DNA from: a virus
Length of the DNA: 25,466 bases
Virus record (IMG/VR): IMGVR_UViG_3300017770_000140
Coordinates: 1 to 25,466 of that record
Strand: one strand, 5' to 3'
Shown: piece by piece, positions 2,057 to 25,466 of the stretch
Layout: each line of letters opens with the position of its first letter
Numbering within the stretch: the stretch's first letter is position 1
The notes under the pieces: model-generated
The model's input: the letters and a program-made list of their open reading frames with translations, nothing else
Database searches by the model: none
Told to the model about the DNA's origin: nothing
Translations under genes and position numbers: made by a program

Positions 2057-2073
2057 TATTTAATTACCTAATT

Positions 2074-2607: not shown

Positions 2608-2630
2608 GTTCGTTATTCTCCTTTAATACT

Positions 2631-2638
2631 TATTTATT
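2631..2638 (-). promoter_or_regulatory. Candidate late promoter (AATAAATA) for tail tube gene
   Basis: The minus strand reads AATAAATA 24 bases before the gp19 ATG. It overlaps the last bases of the gp18 stop region and is followed by AAAGGAG. Position and sequence match T4-type late promoters except for the first base, and would allow extra tube transcription beyond read-through from gp18. Confidence 0.6.
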
Positions 2639-4652: not shown

Positions 4653-4712
4653 ATTATTTCTCCTTTAAATTATAATTTAAAAATCTTAGTCTAAATTTAG
4701 TTATCACAGTTA

Positions 4713-4720
4713 TATTTATA
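4713..4720 (-). promoter_or_regulatory. Late promoter (perfect TATAAATA) for tail sheath gene
   Basis: An exact match to the T4 late promoter core lies on the minus strand in the 82-base gap between the terminase stop and the gp18 ATG. The gap holds no other recognisable element. This should drive gp18, and gp19 and gp20 by read-through. Confidence 0.75.
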
Positions 4721-4734
4721 AAACCTAACATTTA

Positions 4735-6342
4735 TCAGATTTGCCATGATTCTCTTACGAAATCATACCCGTCTTCTTCTGGAATATCTCCTCCGTCGTC
4801 GATAAATCCAAATGGTAACAAATCTTGTTCAATTTGTTCCTCAGTTTTCTGTCTTAAACGCATCATAGTATTAATATCAGTAAGGTCTTTAAAGAATGTT
4901 TGGTCTGTTAACCATGAAAAGATAACGAAATTCATTACCAAATCATCGTGTGCTCCAGATTCTGCTTCATAGGAAGACCCTCTTTTCGAAAATCGCGATA
5001 ACTCTTGTATTGTGTTATAATCCTGTAATATTATCTGGTTTTGTTCAACCAGTAATTTTAATATAGAACAACCGATACTTTTAACACTTTTTGTTGTTCT
5101 TATGCCATTATCTACTCTTTTTCCGAAACCACTTGAAATCCGTTTACCAGACCTTCCAGCATTTTCAGTATAAAGAAGATTCTCATAGCCATAGTCCATT
5201 AAGAGTACATCTGATACTTGTTCACCGATATCGTTGATTTCGATGAGTACAGCACTCTCATTGTACATTAATCCTATTCTATATATAATTGCTGCGAAAT
5301 CCACTGGGGAAACAGTGTTATCTCTATATACACAAACCTGAGTATAAGGCATTTTTGTAATATCTATAATATTAAATGTACTATAATCGAGGCCTTTGCC
5401 TCGAGATACATCAACTGTCATAACATAAGTGTGGTCTTCTTGTGCAGCTTCGTATTGAGATATTCCCTCATTTTCTTGTATTGGTCGAGAATATGCTAAT
5501 TCTTTTAATTTAGAACCATCAATAAGTGTTCCCGAACTACCTAAGAATTGACAACAATACTCTTGGTTAAACTTTTCATTATCAAAGTCTAGTGCTTCGA
5601 GCGTTTCGTTTTTCCATAATTCATCTCTACCAGGAACATCGTCCCACATTACCTTAACAAATTCATAACCATTTGTGCCTTCTTCAGCACCTTTACATGT
5701 TTTCCAAAAATGGTTTAATCCATTAGGAGTAGAAGTCATTAATAATTTTGTAGTTTTACCAGATGATATCGTTGGATATACTGAAGCAAAGAACTCATCA
5801 AATCCTTCAATAAATGCAACCTCGTCTAGGTATAGGAATGAGATTGATTTACCACGAATAGCACTTGATGTTGTGGTACCTGCGTAAATTTTACAACCAT
5901 TTTCCAAAGATATATTACCTTTGTTCCATTCTTCAATACCTTGTTGCATCCATTTAGGTAATGCTTCATAGGCGAGTTGTACTCTACCTAATACTTCTCG
6001 AGCTGCATCTCCTTTGTTAGCAAGAATTGCAACTGTTTTAAATTCGTTAAAAAGAATATAATGCAGAATAACTGCACATGCTGTAGTTGTTTTACCAGAC
6101 TGTCTTGCAGTCAATACAGCAACACGTCGATTGTTTGTAATCTTCGTAGTAATATCTTTTTGATAGTCATACATTTCAAAGGGAACAAATCCCTTATCAA
6201 CATGCACAATTTTAATATACTTTGAAGCAAAATATATTGGGTCTTCTGCACATTTCATGTACTCCTTGATTTGCTTAGGAGTATATTCGTGTTGTTCATT
6301 GGACCTTTTGAGGTAATTGTTACCTAAATATCCGTTACTCAC
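4735..6342 (-). CDS. 17: Terminase large subunit gp17 (packaging ATPase/nuclease), GTG start
   Basis: Encodes 535 residues, shorter than T4 gp17 (610). It powers DNA packaging and makes the headful cut. The ATPase domain has Walker A TARQSGKTT (residues 78-86), Walker B FLYLDEVAF (169-177) and the coupling motif TSTPNG (203-208). The C-terminal RuvC-like nuclease shows MTVDVSRGKGLDYS with the acidic D311, an IEIND stretch (368-371 region), and HDDLVM (465-470) supplying late acidic residues. The start is GTG at 6342: TGA and TAA lie in frame just upstream, and AAAGGA sits 5 bases before it. The next Met is at residue 29, which would remove part of the conserved N-terminal region. The start overlaps the gp16 stop by 8 bases, suggesting translational coupling as expected for a subunit pair. 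Confidence 0.97.
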   Translation of the reverse strand: MSNGYLGNNYLKRSNEQHEYTPKQIKEYMKCAEDPIYFASKYIKIVHVDKGFVPFEMYDYQKDITTKITNNRRVAVLTARQSGKTTTACAVILHYILFNEFKTVAILANKGDAAREVLGRVQLAYEALPKWMQQGIEEWNKGNISLENGCKIYAGTTTSSAIRGKSISFLYLDEVAFIEGFDEFFASVYPTISSGKTTKLLMTSTPNGLNHFWKTCKGAEEGTNGYEFVKVMWDDVPGRDELWKNETLEALDFDNEKFNQEYCCQFLGSSGTLIDGSKLKELAYSRPIQENEGISQYEAAQEDHTYVMTVDVSRGKGLDYSTFNIIDITKMPYTQVCVYRDNTVSPVDFAAIIYRIGLMYNESAVLIEINDIGEQVSDVLLMDYGYENLLYTENAGRSGKRISSGFGKRVDNGIRTTKSVKSIGCSILKLLVEQNQIILQDYNTIQELSRFSKRGSSYEAESGAHDDLVMNFVIFSWLTDQTFFKDLTDINTMMRLRQKTEEQIEQDLLPFGFIDDGGDIPEEDGYDFVRESWQI

Positions 6343-6848: not shown

Positions 6849-7295
6849 TTATCCTTCTTGAGTCATTTTCCAATCACCATCTTTATTGACCCAAGCGCAA
6901 GCTTTTCGTAAACCTGATGTACTGAATCTATGGTCTCTTTTATTAAAAAAGAGTTCAATGTCTCGTTTACGGCAAATATCTTTACCTGTAAATTCTTTAT
7001 CTCTATATTCATCACCTAAAATACGAACATCAATATGATACAATTCCAAAATATCCATAAGGTCTCGCTCAGAGTTATAAGGAATAATCTCGTCGACATA
7101 TCCAATTGCTTTAAGCTGTGTATATCTTTCAACAATTGTTTGTATAGGTGGGTTCTTTTCTTTAGGTCTATCTAATGCAGGGTCCATTTGTAATCCTACC
7201 ATTAAATAATCACATTGTGCTTTAGCATCTCTTAACATCTGTACATGACCTGCATGTAATAAATCAAATGCGCTACATGTAAAACCAATTCTCAT
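6849..7295 (-). CDS. Cytidylyltransferase-like nucleotidyltransferase (GCT/TagD type)
   Basis: Encodes 148 residues of the small HxGH nucleotidyltransferase family (glycerol-3-phosphate cytidylyltransferase TagD-like), which joins a nucleotide to a phosphorylated alcohol or sugar. HAGH is at residues 14-17 after the N-terminal MRIGFTCSAFDLL. ILGDEYRDKEF and the second motif HRFSTSGLRK, equivalent to the family's RTxGISTT-type loop, follow. Substrate cannot be read from sequence. An in-frame TTG at 7307 would add four residues, but the ATG at 7295 is preferred because GGAGA lies 5 bases before it and overlaps the would-be TTG extension. The gene is wedged between gp15 and gp16, neighbours in T4, and carries its own consensus sigma70 promoter, so it looks like an acquired cargo gene. 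Confidence 0.9.
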   Translation of the reverse strand: MRIGFTCSAFDLLHAGHVQMLRDAKAQCDYLMVGLQMDPALDRPKEKNPPIQTIVERYTQLKAIGYVDEIIPYNSERDLMDILELYHIDVRILGDEYRDKEFTGKDICRKRDIELFFNKRDHRFSTSGLRKACAWVNKDGDWKMTQEG

Positions 7296-7300
7296 AATAT

Positions 7301-7305
7301 TCTCC
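7301..7305 (-). promoter_or_regulatory. Ribosome binding site deciding the nucleotidyltransferase start
   Basis: GGAGA on the minus strand sits 5 bases before the ATG at 7295. It overlaps the upstream in-frame TTG (7307..7305), so TTG would lack its own site. This favours the ATG. Confidence 0.75.
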
Positions 7306-7330
7306 AATCATTTTTCATTTCCAATTATAT

Positions 7331-7359
7331 ATTATAACACATTTTAAAGTGTTTGTCAA
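7331..7359 (-). promoter_or_regulatory. Consensus sigma70 promoter with palindromic spacer (P1)
   Basis: The -35 TTGACA (7359..7354) and -10 TATAAT (7336..7331) are both perfect matches to bacterial housekeeping consensus, with an exact 17-base spacer, AACACTTTAAAATGTGT. The spacer has approximate dyad symmetry (ACAC and GTGT arms, 6 of 8 pairs matching). It lies in the gap between the gp15 stop and the nucleotidyltransferase, giving a predicted leader of roughly 30 bases. It is very like the promoter at 16848-16876. A regulator binding the dyad would block polymerase. Early or host-polymerase expression is inferred. Confidence 0.88.
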
Positions 7360-12776: not shown

Positions 12777-13736
12777 TTAAATCGCAGGCATGTTGCCCCA
12801 GTTTGCTGTAGCTGAGATTGACCCTAGAGGTACATCGCAAGTAGCATATACTGTACCTGCAACGCTGTCTACAATTTTAATTCTAAAATCTGGGTCTAGA
12901 CCTGTAAAGCTTGCACTTGTTTGGGTAGATGAAGGGTCGCTATTTTGTGATACAGCTTGCCATCCAAAAAATAAACTACCTGACGTTGGAACAGTATAAT
13001 ATGAACCACTAGAATAACCATCATTAGTTGGAAGTGGTCCATAGCTATATCCACCAGAAGGGTTTGTGTTACTGCCATTAACATTTTGGCTTTGTACATT
13101 ATATTGCGCAGTAACTGCAGTAATATTACTTAATCCTGTATAGGTAGCATAAGATGTATATTGGTTTGAGCCACTATTAAAGTTTCCAGAACCATGAACT
13201 ACATTAATTCTGTTATTTGATGTATCATGTTGAAAAGAAACCCATACTGCTGACCACGGTTCGCTGAAAGTTCCGTAACCACTTACTGATGTATCCCAGG
13301 CGTTATTAAATGTCCAGTCGTTAAAAGCTGAAGAAGTTGAAGATGGTTCATCAAATCCAATAGCTGTAGCTCTTACATCAGCACCATTAGAGCCAGTGCA
13401 TGTAAATGTGATTTGCCAATGGCGATTATTTGACCATGTTGGTGCAACACCAAATAAAACTTCTGAACCAAATGTTGGAGTATGGCCAGATGTTGATGTA
13501 TCTAAAAGTAATGTTGCAGTAGCACCTAATTGAGTATTTGTGGTTGTAAACGTGACATTACCAGACATAGCCAACTTCATAATTGGTTTATGAAAATCAA
13601 TAGCTGTTGTTATTGTGTCAATGCCATCAGGATGGAAGTTAGAATAAACTCCGTTTAATCCTGTGCCATAGTTTGTACCTGTAATGACTTTAATAGTGTC
13701 ATCAATGACAGTTGTGCCACTTACTTTTATCGCCAT
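12777..13736 (-). CDS. Putative appendage protein, MAIKV paralogue 1 (first in array)
   Basis: Encodes 319 residues, the longest of the three paralogues. It starts MAIKVSGTTVIDDTIKVITG and carries LLLDTSTSGHTPTF, APTWSNNRHWQITFTC and RATAIGFDEPSS, close to paralogue 3 in the N-terminal half. The C-terminal half is Tyr/Asn/Ser-rich (NRINVVHGSGNFNSGSNQYT, NPSGGYSYGPLPTNDGYSSG), a composition common in receptor-binding tips. It heads its transcription unit: AAAGGAGA precedes the ATG and a perfect TATAAATA late promoter lies 40 bases upstream, right after the glycan cassette ends. So the array is expressed late, independently of the cassette. Fibre or decoration function is inferred. Confidence 0.86.
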   Translation of the reverse strand: MAIKVSGTTVIDDTIKVITGTNYGTGLNGVYSNFHPDGIDTITTAIDFHKPIMKLAMSGNVTFTTTNTQLGATATLLLDTSTSGHTPTFGSEVLFGVAPTWSNNRHWQITFTCTGSNGADVRATAIGFDEPSSTSSAFNDWTFNNAWDTSVSGYGTFSEPWSAVWVSFQHDTSNNRINVVHGSGNFNSGSNQYTSYATYTGLSNITAVTAQYNVQSQNVNGSNTNPSGGYSYGPLPTNDGYSSGSYYTVPTSGSLFFGWQAVSQNSDPSSTQTSASFTGLDPDFRIKIVDSVAGTVYATCDVPLGSISATANWGNMPAI

Positions 13737-13775: not shown

Positions 13776-13783
13776 TATTTATA
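13776..13783 (-). promoter_or_regulatory. Late promoter (perfect TATAAATA) for the MAIKV array
   Basis: An exact TATAAATA on the minus strand sits immediately after the stop codon of the nucleotidyltransferase-cupin gene and 40 bases before the ATG at 13736. It separates late virion genes from the glycan cassette upstream. Confidence 0.75.
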
Positions 13784-14545
13784 TTAATCACGACGTTCTA
13801 TATCACTTTCTTCTAATATATCGCCTAACCATACTTCGATTACTTTAGCAGATTCTTTACCAACATTGGTTGCTTTGTGCCATGTTTCTTTTGGAATATC
13901 AACGCTCATACCTGTATGGTAAATCTTTGTATGTTTTGACCCAGGCATTCCATCACCTCTATCGAGTTCCATTAAAACAGAACCACTTACAATGTGCCAA
14001 TGTTCTGACCTGTGTGTATGGCGTTGATCGCTTAATGATTGACCAACATCAAAACTTAATTCTTTAACTTGCCAATGGCCATTAGAATCTAATATTTTAT
14101 ATGTTCCCCACTTACGCTGTGTTGTAGGTTGAGCCCATTCTTTTAATATCCAACTTGAAGAATTTGCTTTATTGTCTCCACCGACACTAAACTCAAACGT
14201 AATACCTTCTACTGCCATTTCAGGAATGTTATCTGGTGTTCTATCGCCACCGTTTACAAATATAATAGTGTCATTAGGATATAATAGTTTAACTGTTTCT
14301 AATGCATGAATAGCACTGTCATCAGAATCATTAAAAGAAATTACTTCGTCAACACAAGCAAGTTCTCTTACAATAGCAGCGCGTTCTTCCCAAGGCATAA
14401 AATATCTACCTTTTTTTCTTGTTAACCATTCATCAGAATTAACGCCAACAATTAATCTTGTACCAGACAATGAAGCGTCTTTTAAATATTTAATATGGCC
14501 AGAGTGTATTGGGTCAAAGCCACCTGTTGCTACTACAGTAATCAT
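13784..14545 (-). CDS. Bifunctional-looking nucleotidyltransferase (RfaE/HldE-C type) fused to cupin
   Basis: Encodes 253 residues in two domains. Residues 1-135 form an HxGH nucleotidyltransferase: ATGGFDPIHSGHIKYLKDA (HSGH at 14-17), LIVGVNSDEWLTRKKGRYFM and the C-terminal NSSSWILKEW, most like the ADP-heptose synthase (RfaE/HldE) nucleotidyl domain. Residues about 145-248 form a cupin of the type-II mannose-6-phosphate isomerase kind, with QRHTHRSEHWHIVSGSVLME; H176, H178, E181 or H182 and H223 are candidate metal ligands. The fusion suggests activation plus isomerisation or epimerisation of a sugar phosphate, but the substrate is unknown. AAGGAT lies 6 bases before the ATG, and the gap to the preceding gene is 3 bases. 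It is the last gene of the glycan cassette. Confidence 0.88.
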   Translation of the reverse strand: MITVVATGGFDPIHSGHIKYLKDASLSGTRLIVGVNSDEWLTRKKGRYFMPWEERAAIVRELACVDEVISFNDSDDSAIHALETVKLLYPNDTIIFVNGGDRTPDNIPEMAVEGITFEFSVGGDNKANSSSWILKEWAQPTTQRKWGTYKILDSNGHWQVKELSFDVGQSLSDQRHTHRSEHWHIVSGSVLMELDRGDGMPGSKHTKIYHTGMSVDIPKETWHKATNVGKESAKVIEVWLGDILEESDIERRD

Positions 14546-14548
14546 AAA

Positions 14549-15778
14549 TTAATCCTTCATATCATTCATAAAATAATCCCATACAAAATTAATATTTTTC
14601 AGATTAGCAATAAATTTCTTTGGAACATCAATGACATCAGGATGTACGTACCAATCTTCGTATGAGTGTTGTGGTGAAAATGCAACATCATTAATTACAA
14701 GCTGATAACCGTGTTTCTTTAATATAGTTCTTGCCTTATCTCTTATATCAGTACCAAGCCTGTAAGTATCATGCTCGAATGTAATGACTCCAAATTTGTG
14801 AGTATCGAAAGGTATATTTTCTAAAATTTCTATTGAAGCTTCATCACAATCAATTTGCAAATAATCAGTTACTGGGTCTACACAATGTAAATTAAATAAG
14901 TTAGTAAAATCTAATTCTGTAGCATCAGTACAAATTACTGTATTGTTTCTATTCTCTTTAAAATTATAACATAGAGCTTCTGAATTGTCAATAGAAATAC
15001 CTTTCCAATTAAACATTCCTTCTAATAAAGCTGTATTATTATGTACGAATGGGTCACCAGAGCCAATCTCTAAATAAGAACCATTTCTCTTTCCGTTATA
15101 TAAGGATAGTACAAAAAGGTCTTGGTAATGTTTAGAATGATTCGTAGTAATGGTTTCTAAACCATCAAATTTAAATCTAAATCTTTCGTAATCATCATCA
15201 ATATAAGGTATTGTATCTGGGTACCAAAGTTGACCTACCATTTGTTCAACTTTATCAGTATAACCTTTCATGTCATATCTATGCTTTAAATTAAAGAATG
15301 CATGTTTTCCAGTTTGTGTACCACCGATAAACCATGTTGCTAAAGCTTGAAAATATAACAATCCTTCATATTCACCATAACCGGGAATATCTAAAACCCA
15401 TTCTTCATCATAGCCTTCATTATACCACTCTAAAGCTAAGTTGGTGTGCATTAACATTGGTTTCCACTCTTGTAGAGTTTCTAAATATTCTGCTAAAAAG
15501 AAATGAGCTTCTGGTCTATAAGGCATTAACGCTATAGCATCTTGGTATGCAGTTTTAACAGTCCATTGTCTATTTTTTTGGCGTTGGTATGCTCTTGCAA
15601 TTCCAATCATACATTCGTATTGGATTTCTTTATCTTCACTAATGTCAGCTGTTTTAAGATATAAAGATACAGCCATAGCTCCTTGTTCAAGTCTATCGTA
15701 TTCTCTTGCAAGTTTAAGTAACTTATGAGTATTTTTAGGGTCTAAACAGTGTTCGTTTAAAAGTTCTTGTATCATCAT
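14549..15778 (-). CDS. TPR-like domain fused to FkbM-type methyltransferase
   Basis: Encodes 409 residues. Residues 1-190 are helical with TPR-like pairs (KLLKLAREYDRLEQGAMAVS, ECMIGIARAYQRQKNRQW, AHFFLAEYLETLQEWKPMLM), the kind of array often attached to glycosyltransferases. Residues 215-400 look like an FkbM SAM-dependent methyltransferase: GSYLEIGSGDP (motif I, 233-243), KGISIDNS (259-266, acidic residue after the second strand), ATELDF, DYLQIDCDEASIEILENIPF (305-324) and FEHDTY (334-339). FkbM enzymes O-methylate sugars and polyketides. Sugar methylation fits the neighbours but is inferred. The start is ATG-ATG at 15778 and 15775, following TAA of the upstream gene with AAAGGA, so translation is probably coupled. 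I see no glycosyltransferase domain. Confidence 0.85.
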   Translation of the reverse strand: MMIQELLNEHCLDPKNTHKLLKLAREYDRLEQGAMAVSLYLKTADISEDKEIQYECMIGIARAYQRQKNRQWTVKTAYQDAIALMPYRPEAHFFLAEYLETLQEWKPMLMHTNLALEWYNEGYDEEWVLDIPGYGEYEGLLYFQALATWFIGGTQTGKHAFFNLKHRYDMKGYTDKVEQMVGQLWYPDTIPYIDDDYERFRFKFDGLETITTNHSKHYQDLFVLSLYNGKRNGSYLEIGSGDPFVHNNTALLEGMFNWKGISIDNSEALCYNFKENRNNTVICTDATELDFTNLFNLHCVDPVTDYLQIDCDEASIEILENIPFDTHKFGVITFEHDTYRLGTDIRDKARTILKKHGYQLVINDVAFSPQHSYEDWYVHPDVIDVPKKFIANLKNINFVWDYFMNDMKD

Positions 15779-16816
15779 TTATCCTTTCGCTACAAAATCA
15801 AAAAATACCTTTTCAGGTACTTTAAGTATATACGTACCATTATCTTGGTAGCCATAAGCTATTACTACATATCCATCTAAGAACATCATACCAGTAGCAA
15901 ATTCAATATTGTATTCATATCCTGTTGTGTGGTCAATCTGTGTGCCCATAAAATGGAAGTCTTTGGTATAATGTATTATATTCCAATCTTCGTCCCACAC
16001 AATAACTCTGTGATTGTAGTGACCATCCTTACGCTGAAAGCTATCTTTATATAAGTCAGTTTCGTGAGTTATAGTCATACGACGACCTTGACCTATAGGA
16101 TGTACTTGAGTACCACCTCTTAGGTCACGATAAAGACTTTCAACTTTACTGTCTTCGTTTAAATGAACTGTAGTTGTTGTACGAGTTTCTGCATCGTATT
16201 TAATAACTTCTGTTGGATTACACCATTTAACAAAATGCCATGGCATATCAATAACAGGCATCCAATTCTTTTCGCAGAAAGTTGCATCATCGCCTGGTGC
16301 AGGAATAGGATGTCTTCCTACTTCTTGCCATTCATTGTCGATAAATTCAATTTCGCACATTTCCATACGACCTGTGCCTTTATCATCGTAAGCATCTCTT
16401 CGTACTCCACATAAGAATAATCTATTTTCCCAATTAAATAGTCTACCATCTTCAAGTCCAATAAAGTTCCAGGTAGGTTCACCTGTATCTAAATTCATTT
16501 TAATACGACCTGCAGATAGAATATTCATATTAGCATCAAGCTCACACATAATATTGTGAGTAGTTAAACTAACATCGTTTTCTGGATGGATATATTGAAG
16601 TGGGCCCCATAAATGTGGGAATTTTTTACCTTCTGAGTGATAAAGAGTATAATTGACATGACGAACATTCAATAGTATACGACCCTCGTGCATAAAAATC
16701 GAGGGGTTCATAATACCCGTTTCGCCTGTTAACTCTTTTGGAAGGGTTATTGGATGTATACTTCCACCACGCTTAAGTGCGTAATGGACTAATCCATGAT
16801 GACGTAAATCATGCAT
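15779..16816 (-). CDS. GH130/GH43-like five-bladed beta-propeller glycosidase or phosphorylase-like protein
   Basis: Encodes 345 residues from ATG at 16816. Blade landmarks are MNPSIFMHEGRILLNVRHVN (36-55), GLEDGRLFNWENRLFLCGVR (120-139), EKNWMPV (182-188), RGGTQVHPIG (233-242) and EFATGMMFLDGYVVIAYGYQ (305-324). EDxR, EKNW.P, RGG and EFxTGxxxxxxxVxxxYG are typical of GH130-like and fructosidase-like propellers that accompany glycan genes; catalysis itself is not shown. An in-frame TTG at 16876 would add 20 residues but is the -35 box of the promoter, so cannot be in the transcript. The ATG has GGAGA 4 bases upstream. It is the first gene of the cassette. Cell location and substrate are unknown; no signal peptide is seen. 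Confidence 0.85.
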   Translation of the reverse strand: MHDLRHHGLVHYALKRGGSIHPITLPKELTGETGIMNPSIFMHEGRILLNVRHVNYTLYHSEGKKFPHLWGPLQYIHPENDVSLTTHNIMCELDANMNILSAGRIKMNLDTGEPTWNFIGLEDGRLFNWENRLFLCGVRRDAYDDKGTGRMEMCEIEFIDNEWQEVGRHPIPAPGDDATFCEKNWMPVIDMPWHFVKWCNPTEVIKYDAETRTTTTVHLNEDSKVESLYRDLRGGTQVHPIGQGRRMTITHETDLYKDSFQRKDGHYNHRVIVWDEDWNIIHYTKDFHFMGTQIDHTTGYEYNIEFATGMMFLDGYVVIAYGYQDNGTYILKVPEKVFFDFVAKG

Positions 16817-16820
16817 ACTT

Positions 16821-16825
16821 TCTCC
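16821..16825 (-). promoter_or_regulatory. Ribosome binding site deciding the propeller gene start
   Basis: GGAGA on the minus strand lies 4 bases before the ATG at 16816 and downstream of the sigma70 -10 box. It fixes the start at 16816 and excludes the longer TTG-initiated frame, which begins inside the promoter. Confidence 0.78.
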
Positions 16826-16847
16826 ATTATGTAAAACATTATTGTAT

Positions 16848-16876
16848 ATTATAACACACTTTCGTGTGTCTGTCAA
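16848..16876 (-). promoter_or_regulatory. Consensus sigma70 promoter with perfect palindromic spacer (P2)
   Basis: TTGACA (16876..16871) and TATAAT (16853..16848) are perfect, with a 17-base spacer GACACACGAAAGTGTGT. Spacer positions 2-17 form an exact inverted repeat, ACACAC-GAAA-GTGTGT. The axis of symmetry is the same as in the promoter at 7331-7359. The predicted transcript starts about 25 bases before the ATG at 16816. A dimeric repressor binding between -35 and -10 is the simplest reading of the dyad. Confidence 0.88.
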
Positions 16877-16880
16877 CTAT

Positions 16881-16888
16881 TATTTATG
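16881..16888 (-). promoter_or_regulatory. Possible late promoter (CATAAATA) just upstream of P2
   Basis: The minus strand reads CATAAATA spanning the stop codon of the preceding gene (TCA TAA ATA), 65 bases before the propeller ATG. It could give late expression of the cassette in addition to P2, but because it includes a stop codon context it may be coincidental. Confidence 0.35.
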
Positions 16889-17213
16889 ACCAGGGAACAG
16901 CTTTTGTTATTTCACTAGTCTTAGCTATTTTAGCTACAATTTTAGCATTATAATCTTCAATAAATGCTGCATTAACAGTATCTAACCACTCTATTACTTT
17001 AGCTTCAGTTAAATCATTATAACTGATAAAGTTAGCAGCAGGAATACCGGATACATCAAGTGGTGCATAACCGTTTATTAAAGCAGTATTGCCGTCATCA
17101 TCAACTCCAGACCTACGCCAGTGAATGTTAACGACGGCTTCCGGTAAAGAAACACCGTCGCTACTTTCTTCTGTACGCGTAATAAGGTTAATAACTTGCC
17201 ATGTGTAAGTCAT
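16884..17213 (-). CDS. Small structural-type protein, paralogue of the next gene upstream
   Basis: Encodes 109 residues beginning MTYTWQVINLITRTEESSDG. It aligns with the protein at 17221-17649 along its length: YTWxV, GxxLxxAV, a following W, DxxGNTA-type text, PAxxFxxxxDLTExxVxxW and a terminal PW. This compact family is common near tail-fibre genes of marine T4-like phages and I recall it as an uncharacterised DUF (possibly DUF7936), but the number is from memory. No catalytic motif or membrane segment is seen. The gap to the upstream gene is 7 bases, with a weak ribosome site, so coupling is likely. It is shorter than its sister, lacking the acidic C-terminal tail. Confidence 0.82.
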   Translation of the reverse strand: MTYTWQVINLITRTEESSDGVSLPEAVVNIHWRRSGVDDDGNTALINGYAPLDVSGIPAANFISYNDLTEAKVIEWLDTVNAAFIEDYNAKIVAKIAKTSEITKAVPWS

Positions 17214-17220
17214 TATTTAC

Positions 17221-17649
17221 TTACTCTGGGTCTGAATCTTCGACAGCGTCTTCAGCTTCAGCGTGTGCATCAGGAACTGGTGTAACATCTTCAGGTGCCC
17301 AAGGCATAGAAGCGTCTTCAACTGTTACTTCGTCAATTTGTGCTCCAACTCTTTCGCCGATATGGTTTGCATATCCTTGATCGCCATTTACGACTGCTTG
17401 AATCCAACCTAATACGGTGTCTTCTGTTAAATCGTCAAAGGCTACAAATGAGCCCGCTGGTGTGTTTTGTGCGGTAAATGGAGTTGCTCCTGAGAACTCT
17501 CCTGTATTACCGTTACCGTCTGTTCCAGTAACTTTCCAGTATGTTTGGCATACTGCACCTGTTAAGGTCGCGCCTTCAGCATTGACTTGGTCTTTACGCT
17601 TGAGAGATGTTACTTCCCATGCCCAAGTGTAATCTGTACTTAGTGCCAT
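17221..17649 (-). CDS. Small structural-type protein with acidic tail, paralogue of the next gene downstream
   Basis: Encodes 142 residues beginning MALSTDYTWAWEVTSLKRKD. Residues 7 to about 115 align with the gene at 16884-17213 (GATLTGAVCQTYWKVTGTDG, PAGSFVAFDDLTEDTVLGWI, SMPW). About 25 further residues form an acidic, Pro/Ala-rich tail (PEDVTPVPDAHAEAEDAVED). The start has a strong TAGGAG site, and an AATAAATA late element lies 24 bases upstream, so this pair is transcribed late. The role is unknown; tandem duplication beside the fibre gene suggests a virion or fibre-assembly function. Confidence 0.85.
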   Translation of the reverse strand: MALSTDYTWAWEVTSLKRKDQVNAEGATLTGAVCQTYWKVTGTDGNGNTGEFSGATPFTAQNTPAGSFVAFDDLTEDTVLGWIQAVVNGDQGYANHIGERVGAQIDEVTVEDASMPWAPEDVTPVPDAHAEAEDAVEDSDPE

Positions 17650-17680: not shown

Positions 17681-18116
17681 AATCTTCGATTGCGTTTTCA
17701 AAATAGTCAAGTGATTTCAAGTGACTATACGCTTGAACTATGTGACTATCGCCCGAATCCATATCGATAAAGAAAACGCATCTGTGGTCGAGTCCCGCCG
17801 TACCAATATGTAATTCTGCTTCTACTTCTGTAGTATGTGCTCCTGCCATGCCTATAGGTTTATTACTAGATTCACGAGCTTCTTTAGTAGCCCATATAGT
17901 AACACAGCATTCTGCAACATATCCAGCTCGATAATGTACAGGGTCGATATTTTCATCGTGTACACCACCGTTTGTAAAACCTGTAGGGTCGGAAGTATCT
18001 ACTGGTGTAGGAATATCTTCCATTCTTTTTTGTACCTTGACATCAGTAACTACAAAATATGCGTTTGCTGCAGTTAAACCAGTGCCAGGTACTTCGTATG
18101 ACTGTATTAGTGCCAT
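17679..18116 (-). CDS. Conserved small phage protein downstream of the tail fibre, unknown function
   Basis: Encodes 145 residues starting MALIQSYEVPGTGLTAANAY, an opening I associate with marine phage virion-like proteins. The sequence continues FVVTDVKVQKRMEDIPTP, a central VHYRAGYVAECCVTIWATKE and a C-terminal VQAYSHLKSLDYFENAIED. It looks like a small beta-rich domain; no catalytic motif is evident. Its ATG overlaps the fibre stop codon as TAATG, with GGAGAA about 8 bases before, so it is translationally coupled to the fibre gene. That position fits a fibre-associated protein or assembly factor, but this is inference. A possible late element lies inside the fibre 3' end at 18187-18194. 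Confidence 0.82.
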   Translation of the reverse strand: MALIQSYEVPGTGLTAANAYFVVTDVKVQKRMEDIPTPVDTSDPTGFTNGGVHDENIDPVHYRAGYVAECCVTIWATKEARESSNKPIGMAGAHTTEVEAELHIGTAGLDHRCVFFIDMDSGDSHIVQAYSHLKSLDYFENAIED

Positions 18117-21100
18117 TATTTGTTCTCCATTTTATTCATTATATTATATACCATTTCTTCAAGTTTGTCAATCTTTTCTTGTTGACTATTTATTAATTTT
18201 TGTTGGTCTTCAACAATCTTGTGTTGGTCCTTAATACCTTCAACAAGTAAACCTACCATCTTCGGATAATCAAGTCCGTATTGGTCAACTTCTTCAGCAT
18301 AAGATACAACTTCAGGTACAATTTCTTTAACTTCTTGAGCAATTAAACCAAGTTGTCTTCCTTTGTAAATCTCGTCGCGATCATCAACTAGATGTTCTCT
18401 AGTTTTTCTATCATAGTAAACACCGCGTAATTGTAATACTTTATCTAAAGCACCGTCAATTGTAATGATATTTTCTTTATCACGAGCATCTGAGTAAGCA
18501 ACAACGTTACCATTACAGTAAAGCGAACCGTTAACTCGCATACGATAACCAGAAACCGTTGAAGATGAAGCAAAGCCAGTACAGTTGTTGCTACGGTTGT
18601 GATAGAATACCCATCGGCCGCCGCCTTGCATATAGATACCACCAGAACCATTACCATCGAACATGAGATGTGGGTCCCATGTAGGCTCATGGAATGATAA
18701 ACCGTACCATCCACTTCTGTTACCTCGAATATTCCAAGCACCGTAACTTGTGTGACCGTTAGGTTCAAAGTGAGCACCGTTATGACTTGAGTAAATACCT
18801 TGGTTAGAACCAGCAACTCTTAACCATGTGTTTGCGTATGTATAACTTGAACCACCATTGATTTGGAATCTTACAGTTCCACTGCTGTAGTCATTGAAGA
18901 ATCTCATACCACCGTACGATGGGTTACCTGCAAATGACATACCAGTATGATATTGTAATACCAAGTCTGGATATGGATAACTCCAACCACCAGATTCCTG
19001 GAATCCGAATGAGTATGGTGAACTTGCTCTTGTTATACCAGAGTTACCACCAGCGTATGGTGTATTAATTCTGTTAACAGTTAGCTGATTGAGCCTAGAA
19101 GTACTTGCATAGTCTCCATAATATCCAGTATTATTCTTATCGTAGAATATGTTAGAACGAATATCATTTTGGTACATCTGGGAACCACCCTGTACCTGAA
19201 TCATTTTATTAAAGTAGAAGTTACTTCTATCAGAGTAAATGTGTGCGTGACTACTGTTAGCAGGGCCGAACTCAATATATCCGTATGGAGTCTGATTTCT
19301 CATACCCCAAGAACCAGCTCTCATGTAGTAACTACCATTACCAAAGTCAATTTCTTGTAGTCTACTTCTGCCGGCTGGATTTGCATAGTAACCAGTATTA
19401 TTTGAATCGTAGTAAATGCCAGCATACATTGCGCCGCCATTAGTACTATTCTCATCTAATACAGGGATTGTTCTCCAAGTTCTAAATCCTGACCAGGAAG
19501 AACGGAATCTTAAGTTGGTAATTGGTCCACCTGCCATCTGCCAACCATATCTTGCACTACCATTAGAATAGTGATATGCTTGAACACCAACCCAATGCGA
19601 AGTACCGCTTGGTTGGTTAGCTGGGTTACTCCAAGTATCGAAGAAGCCTGAACCCCAGTTACCAACTGTGTTCATATCAATTCTACCCCAACCTTTGGAA
19701 CCTGTCCAATAGTTTGAGTCACTAGTAATATTTGGTCGTCTACCGTAGTTACTTATTGCTCCACTTCTTGTATGACCAGGTAAGCCAATCATTGCTTGAC
19801 CGCGAGCAGTTAAACCTTGCCAGTTTGAATCACTATTTGGATTCATGTAATAACCAGTGTCGTTTAAGTCATAGAATATTGGAGCACGGAATGATGAATC
19901 ACTTTGTACATATCCATAATTAAAGTCGTGATATGAACCATTATAATATTGTAACCAACTACGAGTATTATCGTGTACACCAACATTGTTGCCTTCAGTT
20001 GACATCCAAGTCCATCTTGAACCAATACCGTATCCACCCCAACCATTTCGTCCGATATTATATGTTGATACGTTACCGTATGGGTTGCCTTCAGCTTGTG
20101 CACCACGTAATCCATATCCGTAATCTTGGAAGTAAAGACCAGAACCACCGTCTGCTCTAAACCAATCGTTAGCATATACTGCTCTTAGTCTAGATGTTGC
20201 ATCTGGGTCCATGTAGTAACCAGTGTTAGACCTTGCATAGAATACATTTGAACGGAATGAAGAAGTACTATAAGTATTACCATCCATCATTGCCTGGAAA
20301 GGCCAACCTGAAATACCACCTGTTCCTGCACCGTGATGGCCGACATAGAATCCTGTTGAACCAGTACTATTATTATTGTTCGAGTCAAGGTTAAAGAAGA
20401 TATCGTGATAAGAGTTAAATCTTAAATCGTCGGTTACACCACCGCCATTATCACGAGATGAAATACTGTGATAGTTAGAATCGTTTCCGTAGAATGTAAT
20501 AAAGTCACCACGATCTCTCATGTTCAACGTATCAGCTGTGACCGTTCTTAATGAAGCATCACCGCTTGAGTTATGTACATAGTAAGCAGTGTTGTTTCTA
20601 TCGTATAAGATATTGACTCTTAAGTCGTTCATATATGAAGTAGAAGCAAAGTCACCATAATAACTTGTATCATTACGATCGTAGTAAATTTGTGCTTGGA
20701 TTGCGTTATTTACATAAACTGTTCCACCAACATACCACTGTAAATATAGGTTATTACCTGAACGAGAATCTAAGTGTAAATTACCGTTTGTAGTAGCAAC
20801 ACAAGCTTCACTTGATACATTACCATTTGTACCTACGTATAAGTATCTGCCCCAACTTGGGTTAGGTCCATGTAATGTTCCACCTCTGAATCGCATTGCT
20901 GTGTTAGAAGTAGAGTTAAAGTCAGCTCTGTAAGTTGTATCATCTGAATCATAGAATATTGGAGCTCTAACATCACTAGTAGCACTTACACCAGGTCCAA
21001 TTAATCTACCGTCATTAGCAATATAAGACCTATCAGAACCGTTTTGTCTGAACTGAACAATTCTATTTGAGTTTCCGTTAGATACAATGTACCAACGGTT

Positions 21101-24100
21101 ACTGTGCATTTGAATTTTACCTACAGTACTACCTGGGTTACCTGTCCAGCTTGAGCTTCCGTTTGAGCGAATATCAGAACTTGTAAGCTCGATCGCACCA
21201 GCGCCACCGTCGAAGTTAACATCTCCAACAAATTGCATTGTGTTAAATCTTGAATTACTTCTTGGGTCTGCGTAATAACCAGTATCGTTTGTATCATAGA
21301 AGATAGGTGCTCTTAATGATGCACCAGCAAATAAGTAATTAGGAACATATACGGTATTATTTGACCTTGTCTGTAATGTTTCATAACGAGTACCTGAAGT
21401 ATTCGTATTATAGAATGTCATATAACCATTAGTGTCAAATCTCATGTAAGCCTGACCATGAGAAGTATTTGGTCGACCTAAGTAATACTGATTAGTACCA
21501 CCATTAAGATTATTATCAACGTTATAACCGAAGCCTGCACCAGACCAAGTTCTTCCTGGTTCTGATACCCACATCTGTAATGGTATATTACCTTGTCCTG
21601 CACCGTTATTTCCTGCAGGTAATTCTAACCTGATCGCTGTATTACCGTGGTCACCAGTAACATCTAATCTCTTACTTGCTGACCTATAACCAATACCTAA
21701 TTGCCATACACGGCCGTTATTAGCAGGGTCTATATAGTAATTAGTGTCGTTATAGTCATAGAATAATGCAGCTCTTGCATCACCACCTTGAACATATAAG
21801 TTATTACCATTCTCAACTCTAACATGTGAGTCGCCTTTACCTACTGAGAATAATACAGTACTTAAGTCTTCGTTGTTGTATATACGAGTACCACCATAGC
21901 TTGGCTGAGCACCCATACGAATACCAGTATGCCATCTTAAATCAAGCTTGGTATAATTACCGCCATAATTTTCTAAGTTTGTACCGATGTAATAGTTGCC
22001 TTGAGCATTACCATCTCCACCACCAAACATTAACCTTGTTGAACCAACTGAGTTATATGGATTGTTTTGGAAGTTACCACCAATTACAACAAACCCTGCG
22101 GTTCTTAATGTATTAATTCTTGATTCACTGTGTGGGTCTGTATAGTAAGCAGTATTGTTACTATCGTAAAATATTGGAGCTCTTAATGATGAACCAGCTT
22201 GCAAGTTATTGTTAACATATACGTTACTGCCACCTAATGGGTCTGAACCATTATTGATTGACATGACCTGAGTTGCCATGTTATAATCAGTATAGAAACG
22301 CATACCTTGGTAAGAAGCATTAGCACCAAACTTAAGACCTGTGTGGAAAGCAATTCTTAAATCAGGATATGGATAAGTCCAACTACCACCTTCACGGAAG
22401 ATTGCATAGGCAGTACTTTGGTTAGAACCAAAATATAAACCAAATTGGTCGTCTTGTGAAACATCATCTACGTGAGAGAAACGTTGAGCTCTTACAGAGT
22501 TCAGTACTGAAGTTGAAGCAGGGTCTAGATAATATCCAGTGTTATTTAAGTCATAGAAGAGTGGTGAACGCATAGAACCACGAGCTTCTGTATAACCAGT
22601 TCTAATAACAAGTCTTGCATACGAGTCGTATGACCAACCATTAACACCAACACCGTAGTGTGGATTATTTTGGTTATCAAAGTAACCAATTTGTATAGAT
22701 TCAGGATTATAGTTTGATGTACCAATATTCCATCTTCTAAATCCACCACCCTGTCGTGACCTGAAACTAATTACACCACCGTGTGTTGTATTACTTCCGT
22801 ATGACCATAGTGTAAGGTGCGGATAAGCATGGTTTTCGCCAATTTCGAGCTGTGGTCTGTTAGTATCTCGTGTTGTAGTTGTAGCACTGTTAGCACCAAT
22901 TTTTAAATATGAGTCACCACTTGAAAGGCGCATGTAATTCAGTCTTGAAGTACTTGCTGGGTCGACATAATATCCTGTGTTATTATAATCGTAGAATAAT
23001 GTACCACGAACATCTTGTGAGAATACAGCTCTACTTGAAATAGCAGCTCTGAATCCACCATTGTTAATAATTAACAAACCATGATCGTTTAGGTTATTAG
23101 CTCCACCTTTACTTCCTGCGTTTGGATGCGACCATGCAACACCATACATATTTGCTGTAGAGTTACCATCAGCAGGTAATCTGTATGATGAGCCCATCGC
23201 AAAGACTTGTTGTAGTCTTGTAGATGTATAAGTACCTGTGATACCAAGACCATAGTTTAAGAACGTATGATAACCATTCTGCTGTGAAGTATTCCAATAA
23301 GAAGTACTGTTTGGATTTAAATAGTAACCAGTATTATCTCTATCGTATATAATACTAGGTCGTACATCATTCATGTACGATACAGAAGCAGGGTCTACAT
23401 AGAAAGTACTTGGGTTTGCTCTATCTCTAAATACGTTTGCTGTTATTTCATCTGCAGTAATATCATCTGCTAGTAAATCATCAACTAATAAATTGGATTC
23501 AGCGTTACGACGCTTGAGCATAATACCAGCCCACTGTCGAAGTGCTCCACCAGCATTATAGTTTAATAAGATACGAATTCTTACATAGTAACAACCACCG
23601 CCGTCTGAACCATTATAAGGTGTATGTGATGATGGTATTGTTGTATGACCACGTTGTGTCTGCCAACTGGTATTAGTAAATATATTACCACCAACTACGA
23701 AGTATGTAGTACCTGTATTACCAGCGATTGGTCGTTTCTGACTATCAAATCTCTCAACACCGTAGTATAATCGGCCGCCTGAGCCTGAAATTGTTTTATG
23801 AGAAATCTCACCGTAAATATCTTCACCAGGAACAACTGGTATGTAATCTGAATAGAATGTTCTGTAACCAGATGATTGGAGAACCATTGAACCAGCGAAT
23901 GGTCCGTCTGTTGTTCTAACAAATTCTGCTGTATTACTTGTAAGAGCGCTTTCGTTATCAGCCATTGGCTTAATAACACGTTTGTCAAAGTATTCTGTAG
24001 CATCAAATAATACTAAGTCTGCTCCACCTGAGCCGTATGACTTAATAAGACCGATGTTTTCGTTTCCACCATTTAGTAAGAAGTTACCAGCAGAAACATT

Positions 24101-25466
24101 ACCATTAAAGTGTGCATTACCATTATCAAGGTCAATACTTGCTCTTACATTACCTGAACCAACAAATACGAGTTCATTTGGATTAGAACTACTAAAGTGA
24201 CTATATGAAGCACCAGTATTTCCTGCCCAGAAGATACCCCAGTTATTAGCTGTGTTCCAAATCCAATGTGAATAATCTTGAGCTTCTAAGAATCTATTAT
24301 TATCACCACCGCCTGAAGTTTGGAAATTATCTCTTCTAATTCTTCCAGCAATCTTAAGTGCATTATCTGTATTACCAGATGCAAAGTTAGCATAATAACC
24401 AGTATTATTTGAATCGTAATAAATTGGAGCACGCATTTGGTTATTTGCGAGGAAGTAACCATTTGCTGTTTGTGCTTGTACTCCACCATTATAGCGTAAA
24501 TCTATTTGAGCATTACGTTGACCGTATAACATCCATTCATTATCGATGTCATTATAGATACCCATTTCACCGGTATTTGCCATAAAGACATAGTTACCTT
24601 CAATAGAGTAACCAGCCCAACCATTGCGTCGGCCGCCAGCCATTATTGAACCGTAACTACCAGATGATTCATCTATGTAATATGTTGTTCCATGATTCAT
24701 GTAGTATCTTAAGGCCTGAATAGTATTCAGTCTTGTATTACTATGTGGGTCTATGTAATATCCAGTGTTGTCAGTATCGTAACCAACATTGAAATAGATA
24801 TTTTTGCCTGAAGCAGAACTACCATTTCTTCCATATACAACAGGAGATAACCAACCTGAGTAGTTATCGTTATTCCATTGTGTCTTATACGCAAGGTCAC
24901 CAGTATGTGCTGAATATAATTGGAACGAATGATTATCTGTTCTTGTACTTATTACAGAACCGTAAGTATATACAGTAGGTGGTGAGTTGGTATAATTACC
25001 AATAGCATTATACTGAGTGACAGTAAATTTACCAGAAGTATCAACAAGGGTCTGCCAATCTGATTGCTGGTTTGTAGTATTAATAGTACCAATATTGGTA
25101 TTATCGCCTCTAGCATTACCATGTATTCGATTTAATCTTGAAGTACTTGCAGGGTCTGAATAATAAGCAGTATTATCTCTATCGTACATGATAGGCGTAT
25201 CAATTCTAGACCTGATTAATGTTTGTCCGCTACCACGGATAATCATATTCCAGTCGCCGTCTAGGCCACCATCCATGAATCGGATATCTTCGCCACCTGA
25301 AGTAGCAATTCTAAAGTGACCATCATCAGTATCACGAGCTTGAATATAACCACGAAGATTACCACCTGATGTGTAGTAATATGAAATACCACCACTGATT
25401 GCTCGACTGTCGTTCCAGTCGATTCTGTTCATTCTTGATGTAGAAGCAAAATCTCCATAGTAAGAA
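18116..25466 (-). CDS. Giant repeat-containing tail fibre with C-terminal S74 chaperone (partial, 5' end outside window)
   Basis: At least 2449 residues. The frame stays open to the window edge: upstream of the ATG at 25432 it reads SYYGDFASTSRMNRI, itself a copy of the fibre repeat, so that ATG is internal and the true start lies beyond. The protein is Gly/Asn/Ser/Tyr-rich with about 18 copies of a module whose core is FYDxNNTGYYxDPASTSRLN, plus one at the edge. Between copies lie variable beta-rich blocks, some recurring (YPYPDLxxxxHTGxxF), and one larger beta-sandwich-like domain near 23500-23985. The C-terminus is a peptidase-S74 intramolecular chaperone with a coiled coil. Such fibres are trimers that bind host receptors. 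It probably corresponds to the long or side tail fibre; the exact T4 equivalent is not assignable. Confidence 0.94.
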   Translation of the reverse strand, partial: SYYGDFASTSRMNRIDWNDSRAISGGISYYYTSGGNLRGYIQARDTDDGHFRIATSGGEDIRFMDGGLDGDWNMIIRGSGQTLIRSRIDTPIMYDRDNTAYYSDPASTSRLNRIHGNARGDNTNIGTINTTNQQSDWQTLVDTSGKFTVTQYNAIGNYTNSPPTVYTYGSVISTRTDNHSFQLYSAHTGDLAYKTQWNNDNYSGWLSPVVYGRNGSSASGKNIYFNVGYDTDNTGYYIDPHSNTRLNTIQALRYYMNHGTTYYIDESSGSYGSIMAGGRRNGWAGYSIEGNYVFMANTGEMGIYNDIDNEWMLYGQRNAQIDLRYNGGVQAQTANGYFLANNQMRAPIYYDSNNTGYYANFASGNTDNALKIAGRIRRDNFQTSGGGDNNRFLEAQDYSHWIWNTANNWGIFWAGNTGASYSHFSSSNPNELVFVGSGNVRASIDLDNGNAHFNGNVSAGNFLLNGGNENIGLIKSYGSGGADLVLFDATEYFDKRVIKPMADNESALTSNTAEFVRTTDGPFAGSMVLQSSGYRTFYSDYIPVVPGEDIYGEISHKTISGSGGRLYYGVERFDSQKRPIAGNTGTTYFVVGGNIFTNTSWQTQRGHTTIPSSHTPYNGSDGGGCYYVRIRILLNYNAGGALRQWAGIMLKRRNAESNLLVDDLLADDITADEITANVFRDRANPSTFYVDPASVSYMNDVRPSIIYDRDNTGYYLNPNSTSYWNTSQQNGYHTFLNYGLGITGTYTSTRLQQVFAMGSSYRLPADGNSTANMYGVAWSHPNAGSKGGANNLNDHGLLIINNGGFRAAISSRAVFSQDVRGTLFYDYNNTGYYVDPASTSRLNYMRLSSGDSYLKIGANSATTTTRDTNRPQLEIGENHAYPHLTLWSYGSNTTHGGVISFRSRQGGGFRRWNIGTSNYNPESIQIGYFDNQNNPHYGVGVNGWSYDSYARLVIRTGYTEARGSMRSPLFYDLNNTGYYLDPASTSVLNSVRAQRFSHVDDVSQDDQFGLYFGSNQSTAYAIFREGGSWTYPYPDLRIAFHTGLKFGANASYQGMRFYTDYNMATQVMSINNGSDPLGGSNVYVNNNLQAGSSLRAPIFYDSNNTAYYTDPHSESRINTLRTAGFVVIGGNFQNNPYNSVGSTRLMFGGGDGNAQGNYYIGTNLENYGGNYTKLDLRWHTGIRMGAQPSYGGTRIYNNEDLSTVLFSVGKGDSHVRVENGNNLYVQGGDARAALFYDYNDTNYYIDPANNGRVWQLGIGYRSASKRLDVTGDHGNTAIRLELPAGNNGAGQGNIPLQMWVSEPGRTWSGAGFGYNVDNNLNGGTNQYYLGRPNTSHGQAYMRFDTNGYMTFYNTNTSGTRYETLQTRSNNTVYVPNYLFAGASLRAPIFYDTNDTGYYADPRSNSRFNTMQFVGDVNFDGGAGAIELTSSDIRSNGSSSWTGNPGSTVGKIQMHSNRWYIVSNGNSNRIVQFRQNGSDRSYIANDGRLIGPGVSATSDVRAPIFYDSDDTTYRADFNSTSNTAMRFRGGTLHGPNPSWGRYLYVGTNGNVSSEACVATTNGNLHLDSRSGNNLYLQWYVGGTVYVNNAIQAQIYYDRNDTSYYGDFASTSYMNDLRVNILYDRNNTAYYVHNSSGDASLRTVTADTLNMRDRGDFITFYGNDSNYHSISSRDNGGGVTDDLRFNSYHDIFFNLDSNNNNSTGSTGFYVGHHGAGTGGISGWPFQAMMDGNTYSTSSFRSNVFYARSNTGYYMDPDATSRLRAVYANDWFRADGGSGLYFQDYGYGLRGAQAEGNPYGNVSTYNIGRNGWGGYGIGSRWTWMSTEGNNVGVHDNTRSWLQYYNGSYHDFNYGYVQSDSSFRAPIFYDLNDTGYYMNPNSDSNWQGLTARGQAMIGLPGHTRSGAISNYGRRPNITSDSNYWTGSKGWGRIDMNTVGNWGSGFFDTWSNPANQPSGTSHWVGVQAYHYSNGSARYGWQMAGGPITNLRFRSSWSGFRTWRTIPVLDENSTNGGAMYAGIYYDSNNTGYYANPAGRSRLQEIDFGNGSYYMRAGSWGMRNQTPYGYIEFGPANSSHAHIYSDRSNFYFNKMIQVQGGSQMYQNDIRSNIFYDKNNTGYYGDYASTSRLNQLTVNRINTPYAGGNSGITRASSPYSFGFQESGGWSYPYPDLVLQYHTGMSFAGNPSYGGMRFFNDYSSGTVRFQINGGSSYTYANTWLRVAGSNQGIYSSHNGAHFEPNGHTSYGAWNIRGNRSGWYGLSFHEPTWDPHLMFDGNGSGGIYMQGGGRWVFYHNRSNNCTGFASSSTVSGYRMRVNGSLYCNGNVVAYSDARDKENIITIDGALDKVLQLRGVYYDRKTREHLVDDRDEIYKGRQLGLIAQEVKEIVPEVVSYAEEVDQYGLDYPKMVGLLVEGIKDQHKIVEDQQKLINSQQEKIDKLEEMVYNIMNKMENK
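18119..18493 (-). other. Peptidase S74 intramolecular chaperone domain of the fibre
   Basis: The last 125 residues start at SDARDKENI, the S74 cleavage motif (SDxRxKxNI); the serine codon is 18493..18491. They include the ALDKVLQLRGVYYDRK strand, then GLIAQEVKEIVPEVV, the conserved IAQE box, and PKMVGLLVEGIKDQ. They end in a coiled coil (IVEDQQKLINSQQEKIDKLE). In characterised endosialidase and fibre proteins this domain drives trimer folding and then cuts itself off before the serine. The Ser and Lys of the motif are intact, so self-cleavage is expected. Confidence 0.92.
18187..18194 (-). promoter_or_regulatory. Possible late promoter (AATAAATA) inside the fibre 3' end
   Basis: AATAAATA occurs on the minus strand within codons of the fibre C-terminus, 71 bases before the ATG at 18116. 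It could boost the downstream small genes over the giant fibre, but being within coding AT-rich sequence it may be chance. Confidence 0.3.
19100..25466 (-). repeat. Irregular array of YDxNNTGYYxDP repeats in the fibre
   Basis: Copies of the module (arm RAPIFYD, core NNTGYY, exit DPASTSRLN) are centred near 19130, 19395, 19855, 20215, 20590, 20665, 20935, 21275, 21745, 22150, 22535, 22975, 23325, 23400, 24395, 24760, 25165 and 25455. Spacing is not constant: mostly 265-470 bases, two tight pairs about 75 bases apart, and one gap near 995. The DNA is also conserved across copies (for example the complement stretches TAGTAACCAGTATTATT), which would support recombination between modules. Some copies are degenerate, such as those near 20935 and 23400. 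Confidence 0.88.
23500..23985 (-). other. Inserted globular domain in the fibre, possible carbohydrate-binding type
   Basis: The longest repeat-free stretch of the fibre encodes VRTTDGPFAGSMVLQ, FYSDYIPVVPGEDIYGEISH, RLYYGVERFDSQKRPIAGNT and GGGCYYVRIRILLNYNAGGA, then a linker LLVDDLLADDITADEITANV. The strand-rich pattern with a PVVPGE-type turn and a Tyr-Val-Arg-Ile-Arg strand resembles jelly-roll carbohydrate-binding modules seen in fibres. This is a pattern judgement only; boundaries are approximate. Confidence 0.55.

Follow-up and report, generated by a model that had tools for sequence, protein, structure and literature searches.

What might a compact block of three sugar-related genes do amid the fibre genes of a marine T4-like phage? 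This question is raised by a stretch of 25,466 nt (positions 1 to 25,466 of the IMG/VR virus record IMGVR_UViG_3300017770_000140), referred to as the window in the following. In this window, three minus-strand open reading frames (ORFs) at 15779-16816 (or 16876, depending on the start codon), 14549-15778 and 13784-14545 are separated by just 0 and 3 nt and encode, in this order, a beta-propeller protein, a tetratricopeptide repeat (TPR) protein with an FkbM domain and a nucleotidyltransferase (NTase)-cupin fusion. An initial annotation, made from the sequence alone, had described a self-contained three-gene cassette with gaps of 0 to 3 bases, and the ORFs were indeed found in this arrangement. 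What it had missed is that the conserved core consists of the propeller and the TPR module, while the rest is exchangeable. We found this core to be common to hundreds of aquatic phage contigs, and in several phage lineages it recurs beside tail fibres. It is very probable that the cassette builds a sugar and methylates it, and we see an even chance that the phage's own tail fibres are its target. Its three genes are:

15779..16816, minus strand: beta-propeller enzyme, GH130/GT108-like, 345 aa, with invariant GLED-x-R (E122, D123, R125) and EKNW (E182-W185) motifs
14549..15778, minus strand: TPR module (about residues 1-190) fused to an FkbM-type S-adenosylmethionine (SAM) methyltransferase, 409 aa, predicted from profiles and a fold model
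13784..14545, minus strand: RfaE-type NTase (HSGH motif) fused to a type-II phosphomannose-isomerase-like cupin, 253 aa, predicted from profiles

The propeller-TPR core and its exchangeable partners

Viral contigs were scanned with propeller or TPR sequences and profiles; the window propeller led to 63 loci, and the profile scans yielded at least 588 propeller and at least 571 TPR matches. Using TPR queries alone, we retrieved 147 viral loci, of which 134 contain the propeller gene as well. In 12 of the 13 others the TPR gene lies at most 1.3 kb from the upstream end of its contig, and a single locus (L171) is a real exception. Conversely, 138 of the 140 viral loci found with propeller queries carry the TPR module, the other two being short contigs, and both genes share one strand in all 283 pairs. 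A search of 50,697 phage records detected the TPR module in two phages only, both of which also encode the propeller. It is missing beside the bacterial propeller homologues (L076-L094) and beside one actinophage copy (L004).

The TPR module changes both its position and its fusion partner. In 100 non-redundant phage loci it was found to be N-terminal in 69, C-terminal in 13 and internal in 12, and in the remaining six it stands alone and forms a minimal pair with the propeller; one such minimal pair (L074) lies between collagen-like fibre genes. Domains fused to it include FkbM, GT2/GT7C, GT17, GT25, WavE, DUF6445 and radical SAM/SPASM. The NTase-cupin protein accompanies the pair in 40 of the 51 loci of the window lineage that remained after removal of near-duplicates, the set on which the promoter counts below are also based. 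That homologues of the three genes are never found together, an outcome which the initial annotation had named as speaking against it, is thus not what we observed. The NTase-cupin gene has moreover been swapped, as the loci L292 and L279 differ by 5% in this protein and by 33% in the propeller. The conserved unit is hence the pair of propeller and TPR module, whereas FkbM, GT2, GT17, GT25, GT11, radical SAM and NTase-cupin are exchangeable.

Predicted enzymes of the cassette

For the window propeller, Pfam, PHROG and NCBIfam searches returned no family, and it was a fold search that resolved its affiliation. Employing an AlphaFold model (predicted local distance difference test 84, predicted template modelling score 0.87), we found that the top 21 PDB matches are GH130 enzymes (Z 20.8-23.0, about 270-285 residues aligned), followed by GT108 mannosyltransferases/phosphorylases (Z 17.9-18.6) and by GH43 proteins from Z 17.4 downwards. 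At least the top 26 PDB matches belong to GH130 or GT108, as expected for the five-bladed beta-propeller of this clan. The GLED-x-R motif aligns with GLEDPR of the beta-1,2-oligomannan phosphorylase 9fj8 (E-value 0.04, weak on its own). Residues G120-D123 and R125 are invariant in 31 sequences, bacterial ones included, as is EKNW in phage and bacterial members, and by transfer from the GLED(P)R motif D123 is the predicted catalytic aspartate. The Pfam GH130 profile did not match the window propeller and reached 5 of 31 relatives at E-values up to 0.1 (best 5.2e-4), while the BMT beta-mannosyltransferase profile touched one of the 31. With the GH130 mannoside phosphorylases (Teth514_1788, PDB 9fj8; BfMGP, 3wau) the protein thus shares the five-bladed propeller (Z up to 23 over about 272 residues) and GLED-x-R, but it differs from them by an identity of 9-14%, by the sparse matches to the Pfam GH130 profile and by its TPR partner. 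The Leishmania GT108 mannosyltransferases/phosphorylases (6q4w, 6q50) have the same fold, although the similarity is below that to GH130 and their context is the storage mannan of the parasite. Within the GT108 family, dual transferase/phosphorylase chemistry takes place on one fold (PMC8950772). As modelled, the window propeller has a GH130/GT108-type fold, with which a phosphorylase and a transferase role would be compatible alike. Its fold neighbours in BFVD also include giant-virus proteins (Pithovirus, Solivirus, entomopoxvirus), some of which are annotated as sugar-transfer enzymes.

In the second protein, helical TPR repeats run to about residue 188. The FkbM profile PF05050 was matched by 10 of 20 members (best E-value 3.7e-6), the window's own copy giving no match, and in the SAM-binding motif region E237, G239 and G241 are invariant, in keeping with an FkbM-type methyltransferase. 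Since the fold search with this model returned TPR matches only, the methyltransferase assignment is based on profiles and BFVD matches. The TPR of O-GlcNAc transferase (OGT; 6eou) matches the model at Z 16.1 over 163 residues, a value that has to be read against the fact that all TPRs score alike. Similar to OGT-type enzymes, a TPR fold is physically joined to a sugar-transfer enzyme, but the catalytic domains found here are FkbM, GT2, GT17, GT25 and others, with no OGT domain among them. The literature search gave no direct precedent for a combination of TPR, glycosyltransferase and phage fibre.

The NTase domain of the third protein (PF01467, 4.8e-14; phrog_7878, 1.2e-25) is of the RfaE/HldE cytidylyltransferase-like type with its HxGH motif. 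With 70.7 bits it stays below the TIGR02199 equivalog cutoff of 181.5 bits, and heptose specificity is therefore not supported. The cupin (PF01050, 3.1e-20) belongs with the type-II phosphomannose isomerase cupins, so that an isomerase role is predicted; its metal-binding residues H176, E181, H182, H184 and H223 are invariant, while H178 varies. The fusion falls outside ManC/GMP-PMI (TIGR01479), in which the cupin part alone matches (64 vs a cutoff of 372.95 bits), because its NTase comes from another family; judged from its domains, its role may be one of supply, as with ManC-type enzymes. No RfaE-cupin fusion was found at E ≤ 1e-20 among 298 other Pseudomonadota genomes, and 80% coverage of the protein is not reached by any phage record. 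The families that had been guessed from motifs (a GH130-type propeller, an FkbM methyltransferase, an RfaE-type NTase with a phosphomannose isomerase-type cupin) were thus recovered by fold in the first case and by profiles in the other two. The predicted folds fit these families instead of turning out unrelated, and the proposed role in making or methylating a sugar holds up.

Promoters and the transcription unit

Three elements frame the cassette:

16848..16876, minus strand: P2, perfect sigma70 promoter TTGACA-17-TATAAT with TG ahead of the -10 box; the spacer is a 6-4-6 palindrome, ACACAC-GAAA-GTGTGT
16881..16888, minus strand: late-type element CATAAATA just 5' of P2 and overlapping with the stop codon of the gene ahead; the element class occurs in 23/51 loci
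13776..13783, minus strand: late promoter TATAAATA, directly past the last cassette stop codon and before the fibre gene 12777-13736; kept in 33/36 loci

The initial annotation had assigned the cassette its own promoter, P2, and had let it end at a late promoter; both elements are far above chance across relatives. In the window, five perfect sigma70 sites (TTGACA-N15-19-TATAAT) were counted where 0.07 are expected, and in P2 the boxes TTGACA (16876-16871) and TATAAT (16853-16848) are separated by 17 nt. The hexamers upstream of the propeller are perfect in 30 of the 64 loci of our first relatives search, with a varying spacer, and a perfect site 5' of the propeller was found in 11 of the 51 non-redundant relatives, compared to 0.0 in shuffles. 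At the other end, 33 of 36 loci have TATAAATA ahead of the gene that follows the cassette, compared to 0.8 in shuffles; as a word within the window it is not enriched (2 found, 3.9 expected). Promoters belonging to the inner genes were looked for as well: a perfect sigma70 site precedes neither the TPR gene (0/50) nor the NTase gene (0/40), and the late-type element NATAAATA was found at 0/50 and 1/40, respectively. As both genes are essentially without a promoter of their own and TATAAATA follows the cassette, the three genes form one transcription unit that ends at the late promoter. The start of the propeller had to be corrected. The TTG at 16876, formerly taken as its start codon, belongs to the -35 box of P2; the real start is ATG 16816, which has GGAG five bases upstream, and the aligned relatives of the window lineage share the same MHD start.

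The designation as an early-type unit turned out to be half right. It is backed by the sigma70 promoter P2, but 23 of the 51 relatives carry the late-type NATAAATA just 5' of the propeller (4.8 in shuffles), with or without a sigma70 promoter, and in the window CATAAATA occupies this place. Near-perfect sigma70 sites, with 11 or more of the 12 bases, were found in 16 loci, seven of which also have the late element; a further 16 loci have the late element without a sigma70 site, and 19 have neither. This mixture suggests that expression timing probably differs between lineages. Perfect dyads of at least 5 bp occur in 5 of 15 distinct P2 spacers (0.34 in shuffles), their arms co-vary between relatives (ACACAC/GTGTGT, ACATAC/GTATGT, TCACA/TGTGA), and the palindromic spacer looks like an operator, i.e. 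a putative repressor or activator site. Another perfect sigma70 site, inside the FkbM coding sequence (14963-14991), recurs in relatives, yet was not counted as a promoter because the conserved peptide IDNSEALCYN would itself generate such a site. Elsewhere in the window, a second, stand-alone RfaE-type NTase (6849-7307), located between small terminase and sheath stabiliser, has its own perfect sigma70 promoter (7331-7359), whose spacer AACACTTTAAAATGTGT contains a 4-bp dyad and which possibly belongs to the same regulon as P2.

Fibre neighbourhood and candidate acceptors

All large genes of the window lie on the minus strand. The giant fibre (18116-25432), a 145-aa protein and two DUF7936 proteins precede the cassette, which is followed by a fibre-like set, head-tail adaptor, Hc2 neck protein, sheath stabiliser, the second RfaE NTase, small and large terminase, sheath, tube and portal. 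Four of the neighbours matter here:

16884..17213, minus strand: DUF7936 protein, conserved neighbour immediately upstream of the cassette (50/51 window-lineage loci)
17221..17649, minus strand: second DUF7936-like protein (phrog_7802), from a cluster of 98 copies in 51 loci
12777..13736, minus strand: fibre-like protein downstream of the cassette, candidate acceptor; its N-terminal ~130 aa are common to neighbouring paralogues
18116..25432, minus strand: giant tail fibre upstream, candidate acceptor; its C-terminus resembles an S74 chaperone domain (read by eye)

In the window lineage, fibres or the adaptor come after the cassette, and in 49 loci of other lineages tail-fibre and collagen-like PHROGs are the most frequent matches among the upstream genes; in DSL-LC02, the pair lies on the opposite strand to tail-fibre genes on both sides. 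The setting resembles the host recognition cluster of pelagimyophages and cyanomyophages, a variable island that precedes the neck genes within the structural region and holds fibres, glycosyltransferases, rfaE and radical SAM genes (PMC7029224). The window likewise has fibres and glycan genes in the structural region ahead of the neck genes, and its order of giant fibre, DUF7936, cassette, fibres, head-tail adaptor and Hc2 neck fits the VrlC-to-gp14 layout of that cluster, VrlC being outside the window. In contrast to the variable island, the window cassette is strongly conserved, and the propeller-TPR core was not found described in PMC7029224. In comparisons with L006, L007 and L009, identity is 89-92% for the propeller, 44-61% for the next fibre gene and 82-92% for the neck and tail-completion proteins; the unit therefore behaves as core and not as part of the hypervariable fraction. 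No earlier report of the propeller-TPR core, its exchangeable partners or the NTase-cupin fusion was found in the papers and collections searched. Cassette type and genomic island are known in general (PMC7029224), and the core pair, the exchangeable partners and the fusion are apparently new.

Further observations concern the surroundings and the host. The two DUF7936 proteins stand as a pair ahead of the cassette in 50 of 51 window-lineage loci and gave one weak match among the 50,697 phage records. In L045, DUF7936 and the cassette are preceded by tandem radical-SAM-like ORFs (1084-5477) that run on the opposite strand, and clusters related to these ORFs occur in 10-14 non-redundant loci. 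Prolyl-hydroxylase-like 2-oxoglutarate (2OG) oxygenase genes (read by eye) lie near the propeller in L061 (2532-3191), L232 and L136, which belong to lineages with GT25-type enzymes, and collagen-like fibres are present in other GT25 loci (L066); 2OG oxygenase, GT25 and collagen-like fibres together hint at collagen-style hydroxylation and glycosylation. As psbA is absent from three long relatives (137-170 kb), a cyanobacterial host is not supported for the window lineage. Three cassette contigs are part of one Rhodobacteraceae metagenome-assembled genome, which could be a binning effect.

But which molecule would receive the sugar? We are confident that the cassette is a cytoplasmic glycan-building unit. 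In none of the three window proteins was a membrane segment detected, and a single one of 231 relatives scores for one; a gtrABC-type membrane flippase or glycosyltransferase is accordingly not seen among these three proteins, the rest of the phage genome not having been searched. In the mechanism that we propose, the NTase-cupin protein would provide a sugar in activated form, probably a mannose-related one, which the propeller would transfer to an acceptor via the inverting chemistry of GH130/GT108, the FkbM domain would cap the sugar with a methyl group and the TPR module, as near-obligate partner of the propeller, would dock the acceptor, most likely the fibre proteins encoded by neighbouring genes. 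The initial annotation had not decided between fibres and host surface. The TPR module as a constant partner, the absence of membrane segments, the recurrent fibre neighbourhood and the late elements tilt the balance towards fibres without amounting to proof. A glycan-modification operon acting on the phage's own fibres would, in our estimate, be right in about every second case. Phage-encoded glycosyltransferases that decorate virion proteins are known from the mycobacteriophages Che8 and Rita (cited in PMC11256854), but there the major capsid protein is the target, and that source mentions no propeller or TPR hub. Somewhat more tentatively, we suggest a phage-specific, modular platform for protein glycosylation shared across aquatic T4-like phages, in which a fixed TPR hub and a GH130/GT108-type enzyme decorate fibres and interchangeable enzymes set the glycan.

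Several points weigh against fibres as the target. The acceptor is a candidate only, and TPRs bind many partners. The correlated divergence of propeller and TPR (r 0.82-0.87, and 0.87 within both groups, compared to r 0.63 for the NTase) speaks for the pairing, but is partly expected because linked genes share ancestry. Phosphorylase and nucleotide-sugar transferase are inseparable by these analyses. Placement in a host recognition island suits modification of the host surface equally, and P2 as a host-type promoter suggests early expression, which virion glycosylation does not need. The cassette could make or methylate a sugar of the host's lipopolysaccharide (LPS) or capsule during infection, thereby altering receptors and blocking superinfection, as has been proposed for the glycosyltransferases of the pelagimyophage cluster (PMC7029224). 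Bacterial relatives with readable context adjoin glycan genes, among them O-antigen-ligase-like ones (as read by eye), so that the enzyme family can serve cell-surface glycans, and some TPR-fused partners come from the LPS families GT25 and WavE. Of the alternatives this is the strongest, yet we judge it rather unlikely: the cassette holds no membrane protein (flippases and ligases were not systematically searched among all neighbours), the bacterial homologues lack the TPR module that, the actinophage copy aside, is present in all but one phage locus with readable flanks, and many relatives have the late-type element alone upstream.

A purely metabolic phosphorylase, which would free mannose-1-phosphate from a host beta-mannoside for the sugar or nucleotide metabolism of the phage, agrees with the nearest folds and with invariant or near-invariant Arg and Lys residues that could hold phosphate. 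It appears highly improbable, as the near-obligate TPR module, the co-transcription with FkbM and NTase-cupin and the fibre location are ill-suited to a simple salvage enzyme. That propeller and TPR module are instead non-enzymatic fibre components or chaperones is the least credible of these options, given that the residues of the GH130-type motifs do not vary and that the neighbouring modules are glycosyltransferases and methyltransferases, even though the fibre neighbourhood, a propeller evolving as slowly as the neck and tail-completion proteins and the frequency of TPR folds in chaperones are in its favour.

So far, the glycan genes of marine T4-like phages have been interpreted as accessory genes for LPS modification. 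The conserved core of enzyme and docking module with exchangeable partners, often located by fibres, provides a concrete, testable case that many aquatic phages decorate their own adhesion organs. If true, such decoration would matter for the range of hosts, for receptor recognition and for how fibres evolve.

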